57,113 nt of DNA, from contig CP070697.1 in the NCBI GenBank assembly GCA_020353555.1, positions 3,652,124 to 3,709,236 on the forward strand, read 5' to 3'. The notes under the pieces were generated by a model. It saw only the letters and a program-made list of their open reading frames with translations, ran no database searches and was not told where the DNA came from. Each line of letters begins with the position of its first letter. Within the stretch, counting starts at the first letter, position 1. Below are positions 19,052 through 29,248 of the stretch, piece after piece. Made by a program: the position numbers and the translations under genes. This DNA comes from Desulfobacterales bacterium (lineage in GTDB: Bacteria > Desulfobacterota > Desulfobacteria > Desulfobacterales > G020353555).

Positions 19052-19498
19052 ATGGCTGCAAAACTGATACAGACCAAAGCGCTCCCCAACGGCTTAACGT
19101 TGGAACTCTATGATGCTTCCCGCAAAGTCGCCGGCGACCGCTGGCGGGTGTCTTTGATTGCCGCAATGGACATTCATTTGAACGGGTTGCCCCGCAGCGC
19201 CGATGACCCAGCCAGCTTCAAGATAGATGAAATCCGCAGATCTTTGGGCGCGATCGTGCGCTTTGAGCAGAAAAGAGAGCGCAATTTCATCGGTTCGAAC
19301 CAAAAGGAAGAAGTGCTTGGGGGATTATTGGATGCCTTTCTGACCAGTTCCCTGGCTTATCTTTCCCACCCGGACTTTGCGCGCAGATTTCTTTTGAAAC
19401 AATACAAAGCCTACCTGGCAAGGCACCCCGCGTCTTGTCTGGCGGCGAAGGCTGACCACGGTTCGGATGACGGGGCCAGAGGGTGCGAGGAGTCCTAA
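19052..19498 (+). CDS. Conserved-looking protein of unknown function
   Basis: From the ATG at 19052, which follows TAGGAG, the protein has 148 residues; the longer open frame from 18899 runs through repeat sequence and is not used. It has no signal peptide or membrane segment. The visible order is a short N-terminal beta part (KALPNGLTLELYDASRKVAG), a DRWRVSLIAAMDI strand, a charged middle (FEQKRERNFIG) and a helical C-terminal part ending with HPASCLAAK. I recognise no family. It starts the rightward set that continues with the threonine-synthase-like gene 160 bases later, so it may belong to the same pathway. Confidence 0.7.
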   Translation: MAAKLIQTKALPNGLTLELYDASRKVAGDRWRVSLIAAMDIHLNGLPRSADDPASFKIDEIRRSLGAIVRFEQKRERNFIGSNQKEEVLGGLLDAFLTSSLAYLSHPDFARRFLLKQYKAYLARHPASCLAAKADHGSDDGARGCEES

Positions 19499-19615
19499 TC
19501 CCGAGAGAAAATCCGGCGAGTTGCGGTGCGGGTTGCTGCGAAGTCCGGCCCCTGAAAGGTTAGAGCACCATTTTAGGGCTGTTTTTCCCTTTTTGCGTGT
19601 GCTAAATAATATTTA

Positions 19616-19628
19616 TGGCACCGTGCCA
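19616..19628. promoter_or_regulatory. Short palindrome upstream of the PLP enzyme gene
   Basis: TGGCAC and GTGCCA flank a single C in an AT-rich setting (TTTA before, AATTTTTTT after), 31 bases before the next start codon. It could be an operator. As a terminator the stem is short and followed by seven T residues, so attenuation is also possible. Confidence 0.3.
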
Positions 19629-19658
19629 ATTTTTTTCCAAAAGAGGAGACTTGCCCAC

Positions 19659-20777
19659 ATGCCTGATCAATCCGTCAAAAGGGAATTTACGCTCTTAAGC
19701 AACGATCGGCCCTTCAACTTAATGGACGGCGCCACCGGCGAAGCAACGGAAGTCGTCCGCCACGTCGATCAGCAACTCAAAATTTCGAACAACCCGGCGT
19801 TGCCTTTGGCGCAGCGGCTGGAAGCCTATGAGGATATTGTTGATTCCGAAGTCGGTGATACGTCCATGGTGCGGGCCCGTAACATTGAGCGTGAAGTGGG
19901 CCTGCGGCAGATCTATCTCAAATTTGAAGGGGGAAATCCCACCGGCACCCAAAAGGACCGAATCGCCTTTGCCCAAGCGATGGATGCTCTCCGCCGCGGT
20001 TACGACAGTATCAGCGTGGCTACGTGCGGAAACTACGGGGTGGCCGTCGCCTTGGCGGCTTCCCTAGCGGGCTTGCGCTGTCGGATCCATATCCCGGAAA
20101 GCTACCATACCAGCCGGATTAAGGAAATGACGGACTTAGGCGCGTCGATTATCCGGGTCGCCGGCGATTACGAACATGCGGTGATCGTCTCCATGCAAGA
20201 CGCCCGAAAAAACGAATGCTACGATGCCAACCCGGGGGGGGACAATACGGTTTTGCAGTTGCGGACCTATGGAGAGATCGCCCATGAAATTTATGACGAG
20301 CTGCGGGATGCGCCCTGGGCCGTGACGGCGCCGGTGTCAAACGGGACAACGCTGGCCGGAATTAGCAGGGGTTTTTTGAGCTTGTATCGGCGCGGCAAGA
20401 CTTCGCGGATGCCGCGCATCGTGGCGGGGTCCTCCTTCCGCAAGAATCCGATTGTGCATGCGTTTTTGAAGAACAGGCCGAGCTGCGAAGATCTGAATCC
20501 CGATCAAATTCATGAAACCAGTGTGAACGAGCCGCTGATAAACTGGCATGCCATCGACGGCGATCATGCCCTGGAGGCCATCCGCCGTAACAGCGGATGG
20601 GCCGTCAACGCCTCGGATAAAGACCTGCGCATCTATTCGCGCTTGATACGTGAAAAAGAAGGCTTACAGGTGCTGCCGGCATCAACGGCCGGATTGATTG
20701 CCCTGATGGATCAGCACCACAAAGAGCCACTTCCCAACGACCGCTACGTCGTCGTTTTAACGGGAAGAAAGTCTTAG
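19659..20777 (+). CDS. Threonine-synthase-like PLP-dependent enzyme
   Basis: The ATG at 19659 follows AAGAGGAG; the longer frame from 19467 lacks such a site. The 372 residues form a fold-type II PLP enzyme: the Schiff-base lysine is K99 in GGNPTGTQKDRIA, and the phosphate-binding loop is SVATCGNYGVAVALAAS. VSNGTTLAGISRGF and VLPASTAGLIAL provide the later cofactor contacts. The closest known pattern is threonine synthase, which converts O-phosphohomoserine to threonine, but relatives make other beta- or gamma-substituted amino acids. Its place beside the QueC-creatininase fusion and away from other threonine genes suggests a pathway-specific amino acid supplier. That is inference. Confidence 0.8.
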   Translation: MPDQSVKREFTLLSNDRPFNLMDGATGEATEVVRHVDQQLKISNNPALPLAQRLEAYEDIVDSEVGDTSMVRARNIEREVGLRQIYLKFEGGNPTGTQKDRIAFAQAMDALRRGYDSISVATCGNYGVAVALAASLAGLRCRIHIPESYHTSRIKEMTDLGASIIRVAGDYEHAVIVSMQDARKNECYDANPGGDNTVLQLRTYGEIAHEIYDELRDAPWAVTAPVSNGTTLAGISRGFLSLYRRGKTSRMPRIVAGSSFRKNPIVHAFLKNRPSCEDLNPDQIHETSVNEPLINWHAIDGDHALEAIRRNSGWAVNASDKDLRIYSRLIREKEGLQVLPASTAGLIALMDQHHKEPLPNDRYVVVLTGRKS

Positions 20778-20822: not shown

Positions 20823-23222
20823 ATGGCACGGGAAGATCCCTCCGGGAAAAATTCGCAAAAAGATATTCCCCGCCCCCCGGCGGCGGACCCGCTTGCAATT
20901 CTTGAGGTCTTTGAACGGTTGGAAGTCGGGCCGGTCAAGCTGGAACCCAAACGGCTGATTGCGCCTTACCGGCTGGTTTGGGGGGGAAAAGAAGATCATA
21001 CAGAGCTGATCTACAGCTACGAAGAGGCCGTATTCGAACCGTCCGAACCGGAATCCGCCAACTTGGCCGATATGATTGCCGCCCAGGTGGCCCTCAATTA
21101 CGGTTTGTTTTGCCGGACGATTGTCTTGCGCGGTGCTTTTGACCAGATCGATCGCCGATTTTTGCGGGAGGCGGCGGAAAATACGGCCCGGGAGATTTTT
21201 GTGAAAAAATTCCTGGAGCCCAACCCGTTCTTGATCGGCGAGGCGGCCCAGATGGCGCCGACAAGAAATCCGAACTATTTGAGGGCCGTTTTGGAATTCC
21301 CGGATGCCCTGAAAAAAAAATCGAAGTCGATCTGGCGGCTGTGGCCGGTTGACAAAAAGCGTCACGGCATCCTGTCCAGCGGCGGTAAAGACAGCCTTTT
21401 GAGTTACGGACTGATCAATGAGTTGGGCCTGGAGGTCCATCCCCTTTTTGTGAATGAATCCGGCCGGCACTGGTTTACAGCGCTCAATGCCTACCGCTAT
21501 TTTAAAGCGCATATCCCCCACACGGCCCGGGTATGGGTCAACTCCGATCGGCTCTTCGCTTGGGTGCTCAACCGCATGCCCTTTATTCGCAAAAATTTTG
21601 CTGATATACGCAGCGACACCTACCCTATTCGGCTGTGGACGGTGGCGGTGTTTCTCTTCGGTGCCCTGCCGCTTTTACGCAAACGCGGCATCGGGCGCCT
21701 GATTATCGGAGATGAGTTTGATACCACCGTGCGCAAGTCCTTGGAAGGGATCTCGCATTACGACGGTCTGTATGACCAGAGTCTTTATTTTGATCAGGCG
21801 CTCTCGCGCTATTTTATGCAAAAAGGCTGGGCGGTCAGCCAGTTTTCCGTGTTGCGACCCCTTTCGGAACTTTTGATTGAAAAGATCCTGGTAGAGCGTT
21901 ACCCTGATCTGCAAGTCCACCAAACCTCCTGTCATGCGACGCATAAAGAGGGTGAACGCGTATACCCGTGCGGCCGCTGCGAGAAATGCCGCCGAATTGT
22001 CGGTATGTTGGTGGCGCTCGACGCCGACCCCATCCGCTGCGGGTATAAAGCGTCGCAGATTGAAGAATGTCTGAGAGGGCTGCGGCAGAAAGGGGTTTCG
22101 CAGGAAGAGGCCGGAGCGCAGCAGCTGGGTTACATGCTTGCTCAGAAAGGAATGATCGATGTTGCCGCTTCCCGACCCCACACGTTCAAGGCGCATCCGG
22201 AAGTTCTCAAGCTGCGGTTTGATGCGCGACGATCACCGTTGTCCGGAATTCCGCAAGATCTCCGCCGACCGCTGTGGCGCATTTATCGCGAGCATGCCGA
22301 CGGCGCCGTCCGGCGAACCGGCCGGACTTGGACCGAATTTGATCCGCTGACGGATCCTGAGATGCACCGGAGCTACCCCTTTGAACTGGGTACCATCAAA
22401 CCGGAGACGCACTCCCCAGAAAGTGGAATTTCAGCTGCACCGCACGGTTTTTTGTGGGGGGAATTAACCTGGCCCGATGCGGGCGAGCGTATCAAAGCGG
22501 TGGATGTAGCGCTGCTGCCGGTGGGGTCCATCGAACAGCATGGGCCCCATCTGCCGCTGGATACCGATACGTTTGATGCTGAATATCTGGCCCGCCGCGT
22601 GGCCGCAGCTTGCAGTGACCCCCAACCCTTGATGCTGCCCGCGGTTTCCTACGGCGTTTCCTATCATCACGATGATTTCCCGGGAACCGTCAGCATTTCC
22701 AATGAAACGCTCGCCCGTCTGGTTTATGAAATCGGCATGAGCGTCGCGCGCCATGGAATCAACAAGCTGGTCATCATCAATGGCCATGGGGGCAACGGTC
22801 CGGCCCTCAATTATGCGGCGCAGATGATTAACCGGGACGCCCGTATCTTTGTATGTGTCGATACCGGTGAGACCAGCGACGTCGACATAGCCAGTCTGAT
22901 TGAGACGCCCAACGATGTCCATGCGGGTGAAATTGAGACCAGTACGAGCCTGGCGGTGCGGCCGCATCTGGTTAAACTGGATCGCAGGGCGCCGTCGGTT
23001 CCGGAGTTTTCCAGCCGGTATCTAGACTTCAGCTCCCTGCGCGGCGTTTCGTGGTACGCTTACACCCGCAAGATTTCGGCCAGCGGGGTGATGGGCGACC
23101 CCACCCGGGCCAGCGGCCAGAAAGGCGCAAAAATCTGGGAGATCATGATTGCCCACCTGGTGGCTTTTGTGGAGGATTTAAAACACATGACCTTGGAAGA
23201 AATCCATCACCGGCGGCACTAG
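20823..23222 (+). CDS. QueC-like PP-loop ATPase fused to a creatininase-family amidohydrolase
   Basis: The ATG at 20823 follows AAAGG and gives 799 residues; a GTG at 20787 is possible. In the N-terminal half, SGGKDS at 186-191 is a PP-loop that binds ATP and activates a carboxylate or carbonyl as adenylate. Downstream, C370 and the trio in PCGRCEKCRR (C383, C386, C389) match the zinc site of QueC. The C-terminal quarter (about 560-799) is a creatininase-family domain: PVGSIEQHGPHLPLDTD, IINGHGGN and DVHAGEIETS carry the expected metal ligands. Such domains hydrolyse small cyclic or linear amides and include MftE of mycofactocin maturation. A single chain could thus both form and open an amide. 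MurL-like epimerases are another PP-loop relation to consider. It follows the PLP enzyme by 45 bases. Confidence 0.8.
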   Translation: MAREDPSGKNSQKDIPRPPAADPLAILEVFERLEVGPVKLEPKRLIAPYRLVWGGKEDHTELIYSYEEAVFEPSEPESANLADMIAAQVALNYGLFCRTIVLRGAFDQIDRRFLREAAENTAREIFVKKFLEPNPFLIGEAAQMAPTRNPNYLRAVLEFPDALKKKSKSIWRLWPVDKKRHGILSSGGKDSLLSYGLINELGLEVHPLFVNESGRHWFTALNAYRYFKAHIPHTARVWVNSDRLFAWVLNRMPFIRKNFADIRSDTYPIRLWTVAVFLFGALPLLRKRGIGRLIIGDEFDTTVRKSLEGISHYDGLYDQSLYFDQALSRYFMQKGWAVSQFSVLRPLSELLIEKILVERYPDLQVHQTSCHATHKEGERVYPCGRCEKCRRIVGMLVALDADPIRCGYKASQIEECLRGLRQKGVSQEEAGAQQLGYMLAQKGMIDVAASRPHTFKAHPEVLKLRFDARRSPLSGIPQDLRRPLWRIYREHADGAVRRTGRTWTEFDPLTDPEMHRSYPFELGTIKPETHSPESGISAAPHGFLWGELTWPDAGERIKAVDVALLPVGSIEQHGPHLPLDTDTFDAEYLARRVAAACSDPQPLMLPAVSYGVSYHHDDFPGTVSISNETLARLVYEIGMSVARHGINKLVIINGHGGNGPALNYAAQMINRDARIFVCVDTGETSDVDIASLIETPNDVHAGEIETSTSLAVRPHLVKLDRRAPSVPEFSSRYLDFSSLRGVSWYAYTRKISASGVMGDPTRASGQKGAKIWEIMIAHLVAFVEDLKHMTLEEIHHRRH

Positions 23223-23274: not shown

Positions 23275-25524
23275 TCAGATGGATTTGCGGTAGACGGCTT
23301 TGGCTTCCCCTGGAGCGTAAAAATCATCCAGCACGGATTCTACCCGATACCCACAACCTTCATAAAAGGCACGGGTGCTGGCATATTGAACACGCATGGA
23401 TGTATCGACATAGACGCGCGTGCCGCCGGCTTCGCGAATCAAGCGTTCCGTTTCCTTTAACAGCCGCCGGCCCACGCCCTTGCCCTGATAATCAGGGTGG
23501 ACGGCAATCCAGTATAGATCGTAGCTGGAAGCCGTGGCGGGTACCGGCCCGTAGCAAGTATAACCCGCCAGCCGGCCGTAATGCTCCCCTAAGAGAAAAT
23601 GATATCCACTGGCCACACCCCTGGCGAGATGCTCATTGGCCAGTTCGCAGGCCATTTCGATTTCAGCCGGACTGAAGAATCCGGTAATTTCCACCAGCCG
23701 GCGAATTCTTTCGACGTCGGGCGCTGAGATCTCGCGACGGAGCTTAAGACCATGAAAGCGCTCCTGGCGTGACGGCCGGCGGAAAATGGCATGATAGCTG
23801 GCAGCGGCCATCCCGTAAAGAAAACGGCGGGCGTTGGTCCCGAGCGTTCGGGTGCGATAGCCGCCTTCCTGAACGACGACGATGGGAAGGCCCAGCTCTC
23901 CGATCAGGCGGCCATTGGACTCGAAGTCGCGGGCTGTCAGGGACCAGGTGCCGGTGGGATCGGCCTTGGCCGTGTCAAAACCCAGGGCCACGACGAGAAA
24001 ATCGGGAGCGAAATCAGCGACGCGTTGTAAAGCCTGGCTGAGTGTTTTGCGATACCGGTTGCCGTCAATCGACTCGGGCAGCGGCAGGTTCAGGTTAAAG
24101 CCCTCGCCTTCGCCCTCGCCGGTGTCTTCCTTGAATCCGGAAAAATAGGGGTAGGCAAAACTTGGGTGTCCATGGATGGAAACGGTCAGGACATCCGGGC
24201 GGCGGTAGAAGATATCCTGCTGTCCGTTGCCATGATGGTAGTCGATATCAAGGATCGCCACTCTGCCATAGTTGCAGAGGTACTCGGCGACGATCGCGTT
24301 GTTGTTGAAATAACAGAAGCCTCCGAAAGCCCGACGCTCGGCGTGGTGGCCCGGGGGGCGCACCAGGGCATAAGCGATCCGCCGGCCTTCAATGATCTCC
24401 CGGGCGGCGGTCAAGGCACAATCCACCCCGCGCCGGGCCGCGGGATAGGCGTTGCGGTTGAGCGGGGTAAAGGTGTCGATGCAGTAGTAACCGGAAAGCA
24501 CCGAGCGCTCTTTGGGCGGCCGGGTTTTATTGCGGATGGGGAAGATATAGGGGTAAAGCGACTTGCTGTCCGGAACTTCCTGGCAGGCCCGCCGGATATA
24601 ATGCACGAAATCCACGTCGTGGACCGCGTAAATGGGTTTGTCCGGGAAAACGCGGGGTTTGATTTGATCACACAGGCCGCTTTTCTCCAGTTCGGCCAGA
24701 ATGCTTCTGACCCGCACCGGCGACTCCACATATCCATGTTCGTGAATGTGGTGGATCGTATGGCGATCGTTGACCACCAGGGCGATTTGTTCGGTCGAGC
24801 GTCCCTTGACCGTTGCCACGACCGCCGCCGGTTTGACATAGCGAAATTCCCTCAACCGCACCGGGTTGTCGCGAAGCGATTCCACGACTTTCTGAACATA
24901 GTCCGGCGGGCAATAATTCGCATACTTTTTCTCGAGGATCGCCCGAGCCACCTGGCGCGCAAAAGTCCGGTTTAGCGGTTTTTCGGTGCCGATGCCGTCA
25001 TAAACCAAAAAGGGCATGCAGGTGTCGCCGGCGCTCACCGGTGTTTCATAGGCCGTGTTGACGATCGGCCGCGCCCCATACCGCTCATAGAATCGCAACC
25101 GCGCCCGATTTTGCCGCAGCAGATTGTCATCCGGGCAAGCCTCGGCTTCGTCCGGCAGGCATTCGAAAAACAGGCCTTTGACGCCCAGGGCGGCAGCCTC
25201 CTGGCGTACGCGTTCGTAAAGCGCGCCTCCGATGCCGCCGCTGGATTTTTCCCGGAGGCTGGCAATCCAGTCCAGGTAACAGAAACCGATTTGGGGCTCG
25301 TGCAAAAGCACTGCAAACCCCAGGACTTTATTGCGAATGTTCTCCGCCACAAAGAGGATGGAGCGCAGCCGCTGCTTGAACGGGTTGCTCAGCTTCTCGC
25401 CGACCTGTTCGATCTCCTCCTCGGCCACCTCGCTGAACCGGCTGCGCAAAAGGTCTTTAACCTGCCGCAAGGTGTCTTTGTTGAGGGGCAACACCTCGTC
25501 GTAAATCCTGCGTATACGTAACAA
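23275..25524 (-). CDS. GNAT-HDAC-GNAT triple-domain protein
   Basis: This frame encodes 749 residues from a TTG placed directly after the stop of the upstream ligase gene; no in-frame ATG occurs near the N-terminus. Domain 1 (about 1-180) is GNAT-like, with SSGGIGGALYERV as the CoA loop and FYERYGARP. Domain 2 (about 250-585) is a class II-type deacetylase/acetylpolyamine amidohydrolase: RPPGHHAERRAFGGFCYFNN, metal ligands D428, H430 and D522 (DIDYHHGNG, GFDTAKADP) and catalytic Tyr in EGGY. Domain 3 (about 598-749) is a standard GNAT: VHPDYQGKGVGRRLL and STRAFYEGCGY. It can plausibly add and remove acetyl groups on an amine substrate. All key residues look intact. It converges with the creatininase fusion, with 52 bases between stops. 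Confidence 0.85.
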   Translation of the reverse strand: MLRIRRIYDEVLPLNKDTLRQVKDLLRSRFSEVAEEEIEQVGEKLSNPFKQRLRSILFVAENIRNKVLGFAVLLHEPQIGFCYLDWIASLREKSSGGIGGALYERVRQEAAALGVKGLFFECLPDEAEACPDDNLLRQNRARLRFYERYGARPIVNTAYETPVSAGDTCMPFLVYDGIGTEKPLNRTFARQVARAILEKKYANYCPPDYVQKVVESLRDNPVRLREFRYVKPAAVVATVKGRSTEQIALVVNDRHTIHHIHEHGYVESPVRVRSILAELEKSGLCDQIKPRVFPDKPIYAVHDVDFVHYIRRACQEVPDSKSLYPYIFPIRNKTRPPKERSVLSGYYCIDTFTPLNRNAYPAARRGVDCALTAAREIIEGRRIAYALVRPPGHHAERRAFGGFCYFNNNAIVAEYLCNYGRVAILDIDYHHGNGQQDIFYRRPDVLTVSIHGHPSFAYPYFSGFKEDTGEGEGEGFNLNLPLPESIDGNRYRKTLSQALQRVADFAPDFLVVALGFDTAKADPTGTWSLTARDFESNGRLIGELGLPIVVVQEGGYRTRTLGTNARRFLYGMAAASYHAIFRRPSRQERFHGLKLRREISAPDVERIRRLVEITGFFSPAEIEMACELANEHLARGVASGYHFLLGEHYGRLAGYTCYGPVPATASSYDLYWIAVHPDYQGKGVGRRLLKETERLIREAGGTRVYVDTSMRVQYASTRAFYEGCGYRVESVLDDFYAPGEAKAVYRKSI

Positions 25525-26559
25525 TTACCTTTTACTCCTTGTCTGGGCCGCGCTCAAAATCCGCTCGACCGCGGCGCCGAAATTCAAGCCGGATTTTGCA
25601 ACAGCCGCTGCGAACCCGGCATCCGGAGACAGACACGGATTCGCGTTGATCTCCAGAATCCAGGGCTGTCCGCGTCCATCCACGCGAAAGTCGATGCGGG
25701 CATAACCGCTCAGGGCGAAGACTCGCCAGCATCGTTGCGCCACGGCGGCCAGCTTCCCGAGCAGGGGTGTATCATGGGGCGCAAAGTCGAAACATCGCGG
25801 GGTGTGTTTGTATTCGAAGGATTCGGGCTCCCATTTGGCCCGATAGCCCACAATCCGTAATTTGTCAGCCGGATAATCTTGAAAAATGATTTCGGCCGGC
25901 GGCAAAACCTGCGGGTCTTCCGGCCCGGCCAAAAGGGAAAGGTTGAACTCGCGGCCGTCGACATACGCTTCGGCATAGCATGCCCCGCCAAGCTGGGGTG
26001 CTTTTTGCTTTAAAAGCTTTTGGACCTGAACGGTATCGTCACTGAGAACCAGTTCATCTTCGTTTATTCCCACGGAAGCATGCTCCCAGAGGGATTTGAG
26101 GATCCATTTGGTCTGAGGGCCCTCGGCCTTGGCGACGGGGGCCGACTGGTCGGGGCGGCCGAGGGTCGGCATCTCCGGCGGGTAGGGTCCGATCCAGGGC
26201 GGTGTCGCCAGATCGGCGGCCGCCATGGCCTGTTTGGCCAGGATTTTGTGCGAAGTAAGATAAACGGCCGGTGATCCCGATCCGGTATAAGGCACACCTA
26301 TGGCGTCGAGCAATGCCGGAAATAGATGGATCAGGCTTCCCTGTCCGTTCAGGGATTCCACCAGGTTAAAAACGACATCCGGCTCAATCTCCCGCAGCCG
26401 GTCCTGCACGGCCGCTAGATCTAAAGTACAAGCAAGCCGGACCGGCTGATGGCCGAGTTGTTGCAGGGCTTCGGCGACCGCATCGGCCTGCACCAGAACA
26501 TCGCGTTCGTCCGGCGCGCTCTCATCGCCTACCGCATTGTGAACGACGGCTATGCGCAT
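25525..26559 (-). CDS. ATP-grasp ligase (D-Ala-D-Ala ligase-like), second of a pair
   Basis: The start at 26559 (MRIAVVHNAV) follows GGGAGG and overlaps the end of the upstream ligase by 10 bases. The protein has 344 residues. The usual Ddl order is visible: PDVVFNLVESLNGQGSL, then PYTGSGSPAVYLTSHK, WILKSLWEHASVGI as the ATP lysine strand, CYAEAYVDGREFNLSLL, and the magnesium site WILEINANPCLSPDAG. ATP-grasp enzymes join a carboxylate to an amine through an acyl phosphate. It is too divergent to be assigned to peptidoglycan synthesis, and the context with KamA suggests a dedicated peptide or amide ligase. The stop codon directly abuts the next start. Confidence 0.85.
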   Translation of the reverse strand: MRIAVVHNAVGDESAPDERDVLVQADAVAEALQQLGHQPVRLACTLDLAAVQDRLREIEPDVVFNLVESLNGQGSLIHLFPALLDAIGVPYTGSGSPAVYLTSHKILAKQAMAAADLATPPWIGPYPPEMPTLGRPDQSAPVAKAEGPQTKWILKSLWEHASVGINEDELVLSDDTVQVQKLLKQKAPQLGGACYAEAYVDGREFNLSLLAGPEDPQVLPPAEIIFQDYPADKLRIVGYRAKWEPESFEYKHTPRCFDFAPHDTPLLGKLAAVAQRCWRVFALSGYARIDFRVDGRGQPWILEINANPCLSPDAGFAAAVAKSGLNFGAAVERILSAAQTRSKR

Positions 26560-27572
26560 TGCCGCCTCCCGTTCCCGCCAGCAGAACCGCGGGAAATTCT
26601 TGCCGCCGCCGATGCGACGATGCGGGCGATCAGCTCGCGGTAAGGGATTCCTAACTGGGCGCAGATAATCGGCAGATCGGAATGCTCCGGATGCAAACCG
26701 GCCAACGGATTGATCTCCATAAAATGCGGCTGGCCGTCGGCGTCGCAGCGCAGATCGATGCGACCCCCGTCCCGGCCGCCGAGTATCCGCCAAACCTTCA
26801 GAGCGATTTCTTCGGCTTCGGCGATTACCGGATCTTCCTGGGGCCGAACTAACCGGTATTCAATCAGCTCTTCACAGTGTTCTTTGTTGAAGTATGAATA
26901 AACACCCGGCTCGGCGGAGGGCCGCAGATGCAATTCGATGGTCCCCAACACCTCGGCCGCCGGGCCGGTGCCGGCAAGGCCCACCGTAAATTCCCGCCCC
27001 GGCAGGTAGCGTTCGATCAAGACGGGCTGGCGGTAGGCCGCGAGCAGCGCCTCGCATGCGGCCGGAAGGTCTTGGCGCCTGTGCACGAGGGAGTTTGGTG
27101 AGACGCCTTTTCCGGTGCCTTCCGCAACGGGTTTGACGAAGAAGGGCGGGGCCAAGGGGACGTCCCTGGCGTCGTCAACGCATTCGACAACCTTAAAATC
27201 GGAAGTCGGCACACCGGCATCGCGGATCACCCGTTTGGTCAGGCCTTTGTGCAGGGTAAGGCTCATGACCAGCGGATCCGAAAACGTGTACGGGATCGCG
27301 TAGGCGTCTAGAATAGCGGGAACCTGCGCTTCCCGGCCGATGCCGTAAAGCCCCTCGGCGATGTTGAACACCAAATCCCAACGGTCGCCGGCCGCCAGCC
27401 GCTGGATCAGCTGCCGGACGTTTCCGATGCGGGCGGTTGTGTGACCCAGCTGTTTCAGCGTGTTTTCCAGGACATCGATGGTGTCCTCACGATCGAATTC
27501 GGCGGTTTCATCAGCGCTGTAGCCTTGGGCCAGATATTCAGATCGTAAATCGTAGGCCAATCCTATATGCAT
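26550..27572 (-). CDS. ATP-grasp ligase (D-Ala-D-Ala ligase-like), first of a pair
   Basis: The start at 27572 (MHIGLAYDLRSEYL) follows TAGGAG; the open frame extends further to 27635 without a better site. The protein has 340 residues. Visible motifs are WDLVFNIAEGLYGIGREAQV, PYTFSDPLVMSLTLHKGLTK, FFVKPVAEGTGKGVS (ATP-binding), VLIERYLPGREFTVGLAG and HFMEINPLAGLHPEHSDLP (magnesium ligands E and N). It differs clearly from its neighbour in the substrate-side loops, so the pair probably uses two different substrates. The unusual SYFNKEHCEELIEY segment may contact the substrate. Confidence 0.85.
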   Translation of the reverse strand: MHIGLAYDLRSEYLAQGYSADETAEFDREDTIDVLENTLKQLGHTTARIGNVRQLIQRLAAGDRWDLVFNIAEGLYGIGREAQVPAILDAYAIPYTFSDPLVMSLTLHKGLTKRVIRDAGVPTSDFKVVECVDDARDVPLAPPFFVKPVAEGTGKGVSPNSLVHRRQDLPAACEALLAAYRQPVLIERYLPGREFTVGLAGTGPAAEVLGTIELHLRPSAEPGVYSYFNKEHCEELIEYRLVRPQEDPVIAEAEEIALKVWRILGGRDGGRIDLRCDADGQPHFMEINPLAGLHPEHSDLPIICAQLGIPYRELIARIVASAAARISRGSAGGNGRRQCA

Positions 27573-27916
27573 GGTCAATCTCCTAACGCGGACAAGCCGG
27601 AACGAAAACGTTTCGCCGCCAAGTCCCAAAGACACAAGGGCAAGTTATTCGCAGTGCTTCTTCGTGCCTGGGATGCCGCGGGTGCGCGTAACCGATTTTT
27701 GCCACAAAGGCGCGCTTTTCATGGTTAAGGAAAATCTAATGATCCCGCCAAATGTCAAAATTCCCGCTCTCCCGTGACGAAAGAAGACCGCGGTGAAGAA
27801 GGGAAATTTCAATCGGCGATATCCCCTGGGCCTGAATCCCCTCCCGCAGGGGAGGGGAAGCAAGGCTTTTGCGGAATCATTGTTTTTAAGGGATTAATTT
27901 TTGCCTGTCAATGGAT
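27573..27916. other. Gap between kamA and the ligase genes
   Basis: The 344 bases hold no accepted gene. A GC-rich hairpin with 8-bp arms (CCCCTCCC at 27838-27845 and GGGAGGGG at 27850-27857) lies just beyond the kamA stop, without a T-run on either strand. It may slow or process a message running from kamA into the ligase genes. Open frames on both strands here lack ribosome binding sites. Confidence 0.5.
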
Positions 27917-29248
27917 TTACGGCATCTCGGCGTCAGGATAGCGGAAGGTCCTGCCTTCGTAGTTACGCAACAGCAAAGAGCCTTCGCTGCGTCCGAGGAC
28001 GTAGTCCGGCATGAGCGGGATCTTGCCGCCGCCGCCCGGGGCATCGATGACGTAGGTCGGCACGGCGTATCCGCTGGTGAATCCGCGCAGCCCCCGGATG
28101 AGCTCCAGTCCTTTTTCCACCGGGGTGCGAAAGTGGCCGGAACCGGAAATCGGATCGCACTGGTAAAGATAATAGGGCCGTACACGCATGCGCAGCAGGT
28201 GGTGGACCAGCGCTTTCATGGTATCGATGTTGTCGTTGATTCCCTTGAGCAGCACCGTCTGGGAACCGAGCGGAATACCGGCATTGGCAAGCCGGTTACA
28301 GGCGCGGTAGGCGTCCGGGGTACACTCCGCCGGGTGGGTGAAGTGCAGACTCATCCACACGGGATGGTGCTTGCGCAGCGTGCGGACCAGTTTGGGCGTA
28401 ATACGCTGGGGCAGCACGGCCGGGATCTTGGTGCCGATCCGGATGATTTCCACATGGGGAATCTGGCGCAGGCGACCCAGGAGCCAATCCAAACGCTCGT
28501 CATTGAGTGTCAGGGGGTCACCGCCGGAAAGCAGGACGTCCCGGATACCGGGGGTGGAGCGGATATAATCGATGGCTCTTTCAAGGCGCGCTGTGCTCGG
28601 GTGAAAGCCCCCGTGTCCGACAATGCGGGAGCGGGTGCAGTACCGGCAGTAAGTCGAACAGAAGTCCAGTACCAGCAAGAGTACCCGGTCGGGGTAACGA
28701 TGCACCAGCCCCGGCACCGGGCTTTGACGGTCTTCGTCCAGGGGGTCATCGGCCTCGCCCGGCATCTGGCGAAACTCATGCACGGTGGGTACGACCGTCC
28801 GCCGTAAAGGTTGATCCGGCGCGTCCCTGGCCAAGAGGCTCATGTAGTACGGGGTGATTCCCACCGGCAACTTGGCGCCCAGCATTTCAACGCCCTGGCG
28901 TTCGGCGTCGGACAGGTTCAAAATTTTTTCAAGTTGCTCGAGGCTACGAATTCTGTTTCTAATCTGCCAGCGCCAATCGGACCAGTCCTTGTCGGTGGAA
29001 CCGGGGAAAAAATTACGGCGAAAGGCGGTGGTCCTCAGTGGGACACAGGCGCAGTGTTGCCTCAGGGCGGTGGGGAGCACCGGTGCGGTTGAACGCCGAC
29101 GGCACTCCAAAGGGGAAATTGTTAGTACTTTGGCAAGGCCAGAGCTAGTACCTGGAGGTTCTTCATCATTTTCTCCTGCCGGCTCGTTTGCGGGTCCGGT
29201 TGTTGGGGTGCCGGCAGGTAAGCGAAAAGCAGCCTTTTTTTGTATCAC
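27917..29248 (-). CDS. kamA: Lysine 2,3-aminomutase (KamA, radical SAM)
   Basis: The enzyme moves the alpha-amino group of lysine to the beta carbon, using SAM, a 4Fe-4S cluster and PLP. The cluster ligands are C197, C201 and C204 in FCSTYCRYCTR. PLP binds the lysine K409 in DAPGGGGKIP. The two acidic residues that hold the lysine side chain in the clostridial enzyme (D293 and D330 there) match D365 and D402 with the same 37-residue spacing, and D402 to K409 keeps the spacing of 7. Glutamate 2,3-aminomutases carry Lys and Asn instead. This supports lysine as substrate. A GTG start behind GGAAGGAG gives 443 residues, with about 80 N-terminal residues unlike the family, so the start is uncertain. 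Confidence 0.9.
   Translation of the reverse strand: MIQKKAAFRLPAGTPTTGPANEPAGENDEEPPGTSSGLAKVLTISPLECRRRSTAPVLPTALRQHCACVPLRTTAFRRNFFPGSTDKDWSDWRWQIRNRIRSLEQLEKILNLSDAERQGVEMLGAKLPVGITPYYMSLLARDAPDQPLRRTVVPTVHEFRQMPGEADDPLDEDRQSPVPGLVHRYPDRVLLLVLDFCSTYCRYCTRSRIVGHGGFHPSTARLERAIDYIRSTPGIRDVLLSGGDPLTLNDERLDWLLGRLRQIPHVEIIRIGTKIPAVLPQRITPKLVRTLRKHHPVWMSLHFTHPAECTPDAYRACNRLANAGIPLGSQTVLLKGINDNIDTMKALVHHLLRMRVRPYYLYQCDPISGSGHFRTPVEKGLELIRGLRGFTSGYAVPTYVIDAPGGGGKIPLMPDYVLGRSEGSLLLRNYEGRTFRYPDAEMP

Follow-up and report, generated by a model that had tools for sequence, protein, structure and literature searches.

What does an enzyme do that carries an ATP-using PP-loop domain and an amidohydrolase in a single polypeptide? 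The question is raised by one gene in the window, as we call the whole 57,113-nucleotide stretch of Desulfobacterales DNA analysed here. A first-pass annotation had read this gene as a QueC-like PP-loop ATPase fused to a creatininase, and had proposed that it performs an unusual amide step on a small molecule or peptide, possibly the product of the neighbouring ligases. The two-part enzyme is confirmed as real, a predicted ATP-using, acid-activating domain being joined to a predicted amide-cutting one, and the general idea of an amide step on a small molecule or peptide stands. Computation shows both folds, intact motifs in each, a conserved fusion, its fission into two genes at two loci and a conserved cassette of genes around it.

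The fusion gene and its distribution

Translation of positions 20823–23222 (+) gives 799 residues with no internal stop. The ATG lies 45 bases past the stop codon of the upstream gene and is preceded by a AAGAAAGG-like ribosome site. Numbered from M1 at 20823, the SGGKDS motif and the four cysteines of the zinc-type site fall where the first-pass annotation had placed them. The features of the gene are as follows.

20823..23222, + strand: fusion gene, QueC/MurL-like PP-loop domain plus creatininase-family amidohydrolase (799 aa, ATG start)
20823..22427, + strand: N-terminal region, residues 1–535 (AlphaFold2 model, Foldseek and alignment); subparts are an extension (about 20–175), the PP-loop/zinc core (about 176–420), a C-terminal extension (about 420–515) and a low-confidence linker (about 524–540)
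21378..21395, + strand: SGGKDS PP-loop motif, residues 186–191 (translation and homologue alignment)
21930..21989, + strand: zinc-type cysteine site C370/C383/C386/C389, spaced C-x12-C-x2-C-x2-C, in SCHA...PCGRCEKCRR (homologue alignment)
22461..23171, + strand: creatininase-family domain (PF02633), residues 547–783 (full-length profile match)
22533..22568, + strand: EQHG...D candidate metal-site motif, residues 571–582 (invariant alignment columns and alignment to P. putida creatininase)
22785..22787 and 22929..22937, + strand: further candidate metal-site residues, H655 and E703/E705 respectively (invariant columns)

The predicted structure of the full-length protein has a pTM of 0.68. Its linker (residues 524–540) is of low confidence, and we therefore make no claim about the placement of the two domains relative to each other.

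The creatininase half is intact, as had been proposed from the sequence. Residues 547–783 match positions 2–238 of the 238-position PF02633 profile (E = 2e-71; 240.6 bits against a gathering cut-off of 31.3), and E571, H573, D580, D582, H655, E703 and E705 are invariant in an alignment of 20 sequences. Members of the creatininase family cleave amides. The metal ligands of P. putida creatininase, which we take to be E34, H36, D45, H120 and E122, provide a point of reference; E122 aligns with Gly657 of the fusion, as it does in NGHGGN-type members. The likeness to the family extends over the whole domain, with E/H/D/H/E positions invariant in the fusion. Among sub-models the best is MftE (TIGR03964), at 166.9 bits against an equivalog cut-off of 172, and the creatininase model TIGR04448 gives 104.6 bits against 235. 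The fusion domain differs from creatininase and MftE in lying under both equivalog cut-offs and in being joined, as the C-terminal half, to another domain in one larger protein.

Homologues that match over the whole length, at 64–71% identity, are present in 6 of the 57 other genomes of the same order, and homologues at 53–69% identity occur on 23 contigs from Desulfobacterota, Acidobacteriota, Bacteroidota/Ignavibacteriota, Myxococcota and Spirochaetota, a set in which some fusions are cut by contig ends and two loci (L042 and L043) carry the halves as separate genes. The fusion was found in 7 of 395 sampled Desulfobacterota; it is widespread but sparse. At the two loci where the halves are encoded apart, they are adjacent. 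On the Spirochaetaceae chromosome of L042 a few codons separate the stop of the N-domain gene from the creatininase gene, which has an ATG of its own, while at L043 the stop codon of the N-domain gene and the GTG start of the creatininase gene overlap. These two loci do not group together in the tree. At a third locus, L037, the fusion frame is interrupted by a stop. The window's genome, although assembled as one contig of 6.84 Mb, is rated only 79.6% complete with 4.7% contamination. An assembly artefact is ruled out by the recurrence of the intact fusion in many genomes across phyla. The fusion is old as well as real.

Fold and relatives of the N-terminal domain

No significant Pfam match was obtained for the N-terminal half of the window fusion. 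An AlphaFold2 model of residues 1–535, built on 24 homologues, has a mean pLDDT of 88 and a pTM of 0.87, and its Foldseek matches in the PDB with E < 0.001 are solely QatC (two chains), QueC (two) and Cap9. QatC ranks first and Cap9 fifth among the five best matches. The predicted structure thereby bears out a PP-loop domain of QueC type that carries a zinc-type site of cysteines, and the N-terminal half did not align best with any family outside the PP-loop proteins. The match to QatC is long (444 alignment columns) but its TM-scores are modest (0.39 by query, 0.46 by target) and its r.m.s.d. is high, so that the fold of the core is secure and that of the extensions is not.

The motifs of the domain are not a matter of chance, since SGGK[DE]S, QxSCHA and PCGxCEKCRR recur in all 24 aligned homologues; the stricter SGGxDS is kept in 21. 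NESGRHW, YPxRLWTVAVF and (L/Y)(Y/F)DQSxxFD are each present in 24/24 as well. C370, C383, C386 and C389 are invariant across the 24 homologues, with a spacing of x12–14 between the first two.

The domain shares with QueC, QatC and Cap9 its predicted fold, a PP-loop of the SGGxDS type and a C-x(n)-CxxCxxC site, and it appears from the model to share N- and C-terminal extensions with QatC. It departs from them in several respects. The cysteine spacing of x12–14 compares with x8 in QueC and x19 in QatC, and the QatC zinc variant C-x19-CGxCxxRR was found in none of the 24 aligned homologues. PF06508 (QueC) scores 14.1 bits against the window fusion, under its Pfam gathering cut-off of 22, and matches 11 of the 24 homologues at E ≤ 1, the best with E = 0.017. 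A profile of the family aligns weakly with a real QueC from a related genome (E = 1e-3, 20% identity over 198 columns), although the alignment is co-linear through both motifs. The substrate signatures described for QueC, YxQxHxxE, VPxRN and YPDC (PMC13329287), are each absent from all 24 aligned homologues. PADLOC gave no QatC match, and neither qat nor other defence genes were identified among the conserved neighbours of the fusion. Motifs and profile models together rule out a canonical QueC or a defence protein.

These data bear on two alternative functions. In the first, QueC-type amide chemistry would act on a small molecule other than a peptide: the N-domain would convert a carboxylate to a nitrile or primary amide, and the creatininase domain would open a formamide or a cyclic amide, as ArfB does. 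A pathway for deazapurines or pterins would be one setting. We consider this improbable. The N-domain does have the fold of QueC, and the formamide hydrolase ArfB is a creatininase-family enzyme too, but the missing substrate signatures argue against it, as do the partners of the fusion in its cassette, which are enzymes of amino acids and dipeptides. A QueC-family search of the seven genomes that carry the fusion returned a full-length QueC from three and a partial match or none from the other four. The second alternative is the modification of a protein or ribosomal peptide, in which the N-domain would conjugate a small acid to a protein N-terminus, like Cap9 and as proposed for QatC, and the creatininase domain would cleave a peptide in the manner of MftE, as in mycofactocin maturation. 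The ranking of QatC and Cap9 among the structural matches and of MftE among the creatininase sub-models fits such a role. The conserved genes, however, include no QatB-like or CD-NTase partner, and no small precursor-peptide or mycofactocin gene was recognised in the cassettes; we regard this function as highly improbable.

By sequence, the N-domain is nearer to MurL-like proteins than to QueC, while by fold it is QueC-like. Affinity to MurL, raised in the first-pass annotation as something to examine, is supported by model matches, by a family search and by a profile alignment. The MurL model NF041275 matches the window fusion weakly (E = 8e-5) over residues 318–392, the QxSCH...C region, and matches all 24 homologues, the best with E = 1.9e-7; scores of about 20 bits stand well short of the equivalog cut-off of 700. 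When 297 Desulfobacterota genomes were searched with this model, one free-standing protein of 453 residues was recovered (L052, 1147–2508 (-), genome G138), and matches were absent from 14 control genomes and from plasmids. Like the fusion N-domain, this rare MurL-like protein carries a PP-loop (SFGKDS), an NE/DE motif and a cysteine region, QVSCH...CHDCYRCAR, that includes the CxxCxRC site. It was found independently by a search with the fusion family (E = 5.8e-10), and in an alignment with the family profile (98% probability, E = 3e-13) it is 25% identical over 236 columns. It is the strength of this alignment, set against the weakness of that to a real QueC, that places the N-domain nearer to MurL-like proteins. 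Judged from NF041275 and this one remote protein, the N-domain and MurL-type proteins share a common ancestor. The same matches, with the protein from L052 as a bridge, suggest that MurL itself is a PP-loop/zinc enzyme of the QueC fold.

MurL uses ATP, forms AMP and has been proposed to adenylate an alpha-carboxylate (PMC5808125, PMC8788868); it epimerizes in one direction (PMC8788868), and its mechanism was reported to be unclear, known domains being lacking (PMC5808125). ATP-dependent activation of a carboxylate is plausible for MurL and the fusion N-domain alike. The fusion differs in having a creatininase domain at its C terminus, which MurL does not, and in lacking a MurD2 partner; no MurD-type gene was identified among its conserved neighbours. 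The likeness raises the alternative that the fusion is a one-way peptide epimerase of the MurL type joined to a dipeptidase. In that case adenylation and hydrolysis by the N-domain would invert the residue at the C terminus of a dipeptide, and the inverted amino acid would then be released by the creatininase domain. We think this unlikely. MurL, a one-way ATP-driven epimerase, is the nearest named family by sequence, and MftE, which ranks first among NCBIfam equivalogs for the creatininase part, cleaves peptides; yet the match to MurL is remote, and the cassette already holds a dipeptide epimerase, so that a second would be redundant unless it acted on another centre.

The conserved cassette and its partner enzymes

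Comparison of flanks shows a conserved gene order at other loci: a PALP gene, a DUF1611 gene, the fusion and an enolase-superfamily epimerase. All four are present at 22 loci from several phyla. Most loci that lack the full set are cut by contig ends; those with enough flank are L033, without the epimerase, L037, without PALP, and L029, without DUF1611. The window locus keeps PALP and the fusion, and both DUF1611 and the epimerase are missing in cis. Its neighbour in the tree is the fusion of genome G028, which carries the complete cassette (the forks, at 89/85 and 93/88, are below the tool's threshold for firm support). Given that neighbour, the short form in the window is most simply a loss. 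The persistence of PALP and the fusion on their own at two loci shows that DUF1611 and the epimerase are not strictly required at the locus.

The immediate upstream partner of the fusion in the window is the following gene.

19467..20777, + strand: PALP, a fold-type-II PLP enzyme, threonine-synthase-like (PRK06381 type)

The part of it that is conserved in homologues begins near 19665, and it keeps the KDRIA lysine motif. That PALP is the cell's threonine synthase is unlikely, as each of the seven genomes with the fusion also encodes another ThrC that scores over the cut-off.

The cassette DUF1611 protein is closest to DgcN among NCBIfam models and has a P-loop, GTDSAxGKRTT. The best PDB matches of the cassette epimerase are dipeptide epimerases, and the nearest enzyme is L-Ala-D/L-Glu epimerase or DgcA. 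Its catalytic lysine motifs, KxK and K, are conserved, GC[ML]DE is present in 22 of 22 cassette epimerases, and a DxD motif (DLDGH) is found in 20, one of the remaining two being cut by a contig end. The DxD motif marks dipeptide specificity, consistent with the PDB alignments. DgcN and DgcA form a D-glutamate route that uses an N-acyl tag, and the logic is similar to a cycle of binding, inversion and release (PMC10845958). Although the cassette proteins are nearest to or near this pair, their scores fall far short of the equivalog cut-offs for DgcN and DgcA, and the cassette differs further in having PALP and the ATP-using fusion besides.

Within the order, all seven genomes that carry the fusion have exactly one DUF1611 gene each, and clear DUF1611 genes are present in 11 of 58 genomes. 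That of the window's genome lies about 85 kb off, beside a second epimerase that is 39–41% identical to the cassette types. Rescue in trans by this distant pair is suggested, but not more than that, since about one in ten genomes lacking a cassette copy would be expected to carry a DUF1611 gene by chance alone. The pair (L051 5868–9911; about 3756867–3760910 on the single contig, C1, of the window's genome, G000) is divergent from a gene for an M20-type peptidase and could be a separate dipeptide salvage unit.

Directly upstream of the cassette, three loci (L022, L027 and L031) have SLC12-type amino-acid permeases. Within a few kilobases of it, four Desulfobacterota genomes encode a sigma-54-dependent regulator (L044 15634–17037, L046 15325–16776, L077 1188–2204 and L081 2109–3512; 51–63% identical to the L046 copy), which may control the cassette.

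On the other side of the fusion in the window stands a compact gene cluster.

23275–29248, - strand: KamA-like aminomutase, two D-Ala-D-Ala-ligase-like ATP-grasp proteins and an HDAC-GNAT fusion

That the fusion acts on the ligation product of these genes, as the first-pass annotation had suggested, is extremely improbable. Physical proximity in one window speaks for the link. The genes are, however, on the opposite strand and convergent with the fusion, and their proteins have no match in the flanks of other fusion loci save one HDAC-like match at 28% identity (L046). They are also widespread without the fusion: the ATP-grasp gene is strong in 22 of 58 related genomes, where it often adjoins its weaker paralogue, and four of the seven fusion carriers are among these, against 2.7 expected. 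The link was rejected on the flank comparison and the co-occurrence counts. The cluster most likely belongs to a separate system, possibly one for the ligation of beta-amino acids. Within it, the first ~75 codons of the frame at 25525–26793 (-) overlap the adjoining ATP-grasp gene (26550–27635). Homologues often match from about residue 75 on and several of the longer matches carry in-frame stops, so that the true start, judged from these alignments, is probably near 26560.

A tentative reaction scheme and its meaning

Which reaction joins these enzymes? Our preferred reading, held tentatively, is that the fusion is an enzyme with two active sites in the metabolism of amino acids or dipeptides, and that adenylation, epimerization by a partner and amide cleavage follow one another. 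QueC-fold families such as QueC and Cap9 activate carboxylates with ATP (PMC13329287). In a first step, the N-terminal PP-loop domain would likewise use ATP to adenylate an amino acid or short peptide on a carboxylate; PPi and later AMP would leave, and the acid could then either be coupled to an amine or have its alpha-carbon acidified. The enolase-superfamily dipeptide epimerase would then invert the alpha-carbon in the resulting amide or dipeptide, a role for which the epimerase–DUF1611 pair some 85 kb away may serve in the window's genome. Finally, the fused, putatively metal-dependent creatininase domain would cleave the amide and the product would be released. PALP would produce or consume the amino acid in question, which the DUF1611 protein would probably acylate or prepare. 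A domain that forms an amide fused to one that cleaves it would be futile, and this calls for another step in between or for two different bonds. A cycle of binding, inversion and release is attractive because the dipeptide epimerase is constant in full cassettes.

In favour of this scheme we count the fold shared with QatC, QueC and Cap9, the affinity to MurL, the intact creatininase domain, the 22 cassettes, the lysine and DxD motifs of the partner epimerase, the nearness of the partners to DgcN and DgcA, the separate adjacent genes at L042 and L043, and the upstream permeases. Against it stand the window and L029, which keep PALP and the fusion without the intervening DUF1611, the missing cis epimerase of the window locus, and the low identity of the trans epimerase–DUF1611 pair to the cassette type. 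If DUF1611 is an acyltransferase, moreover, a scheme of attachment, epimerization and release may have no need of a further domain that forms amides. We found no assayed enzyme close to the N-domain family.

The four-gene cassette points to an undescribed pathway that reworks amino acids or dipeptides. Neither the creatininase fusion architecture, nor its signature, nor the DUF1611 cassette was found in the open-access literature searched, and a 2026 survey of the QueC family mentions neither creatininase nor MurL (PMC13329287). A bolder version, which we rate as rather unlikely, is a widespread but undescribed cycle, driven by ATP, for the inversion or salvage of an amino acid: the MurL/QueC-type domain would tie it into an amide or dipeptide, the epimerase invert it and the creatininase domain release it, together with a dedicated PLP enzyme and DUF1611. 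If true, this would be the first pathway in our searches to join QueC-fold activation, dipeptide epimerization and creatininase cleavage, and it would suggest that MurL, reported without known domains, is itself a PP-loop enzyme.

Roles in both tRNA modification and phage immunity have recently emerged for QueC-fold enzymes (PMC13329287, PMC13279940), and the fusion branch would place the fold in amino-acid or dipeptide metabolism. The cassette links four enzymes across several, mostly uncultured, phyla and offers a concrete gene set to assay. For MurL, the sequence link suggests a PP-loop/zinc enzyme, and with that its mechanism becomes accessible to direct tests.
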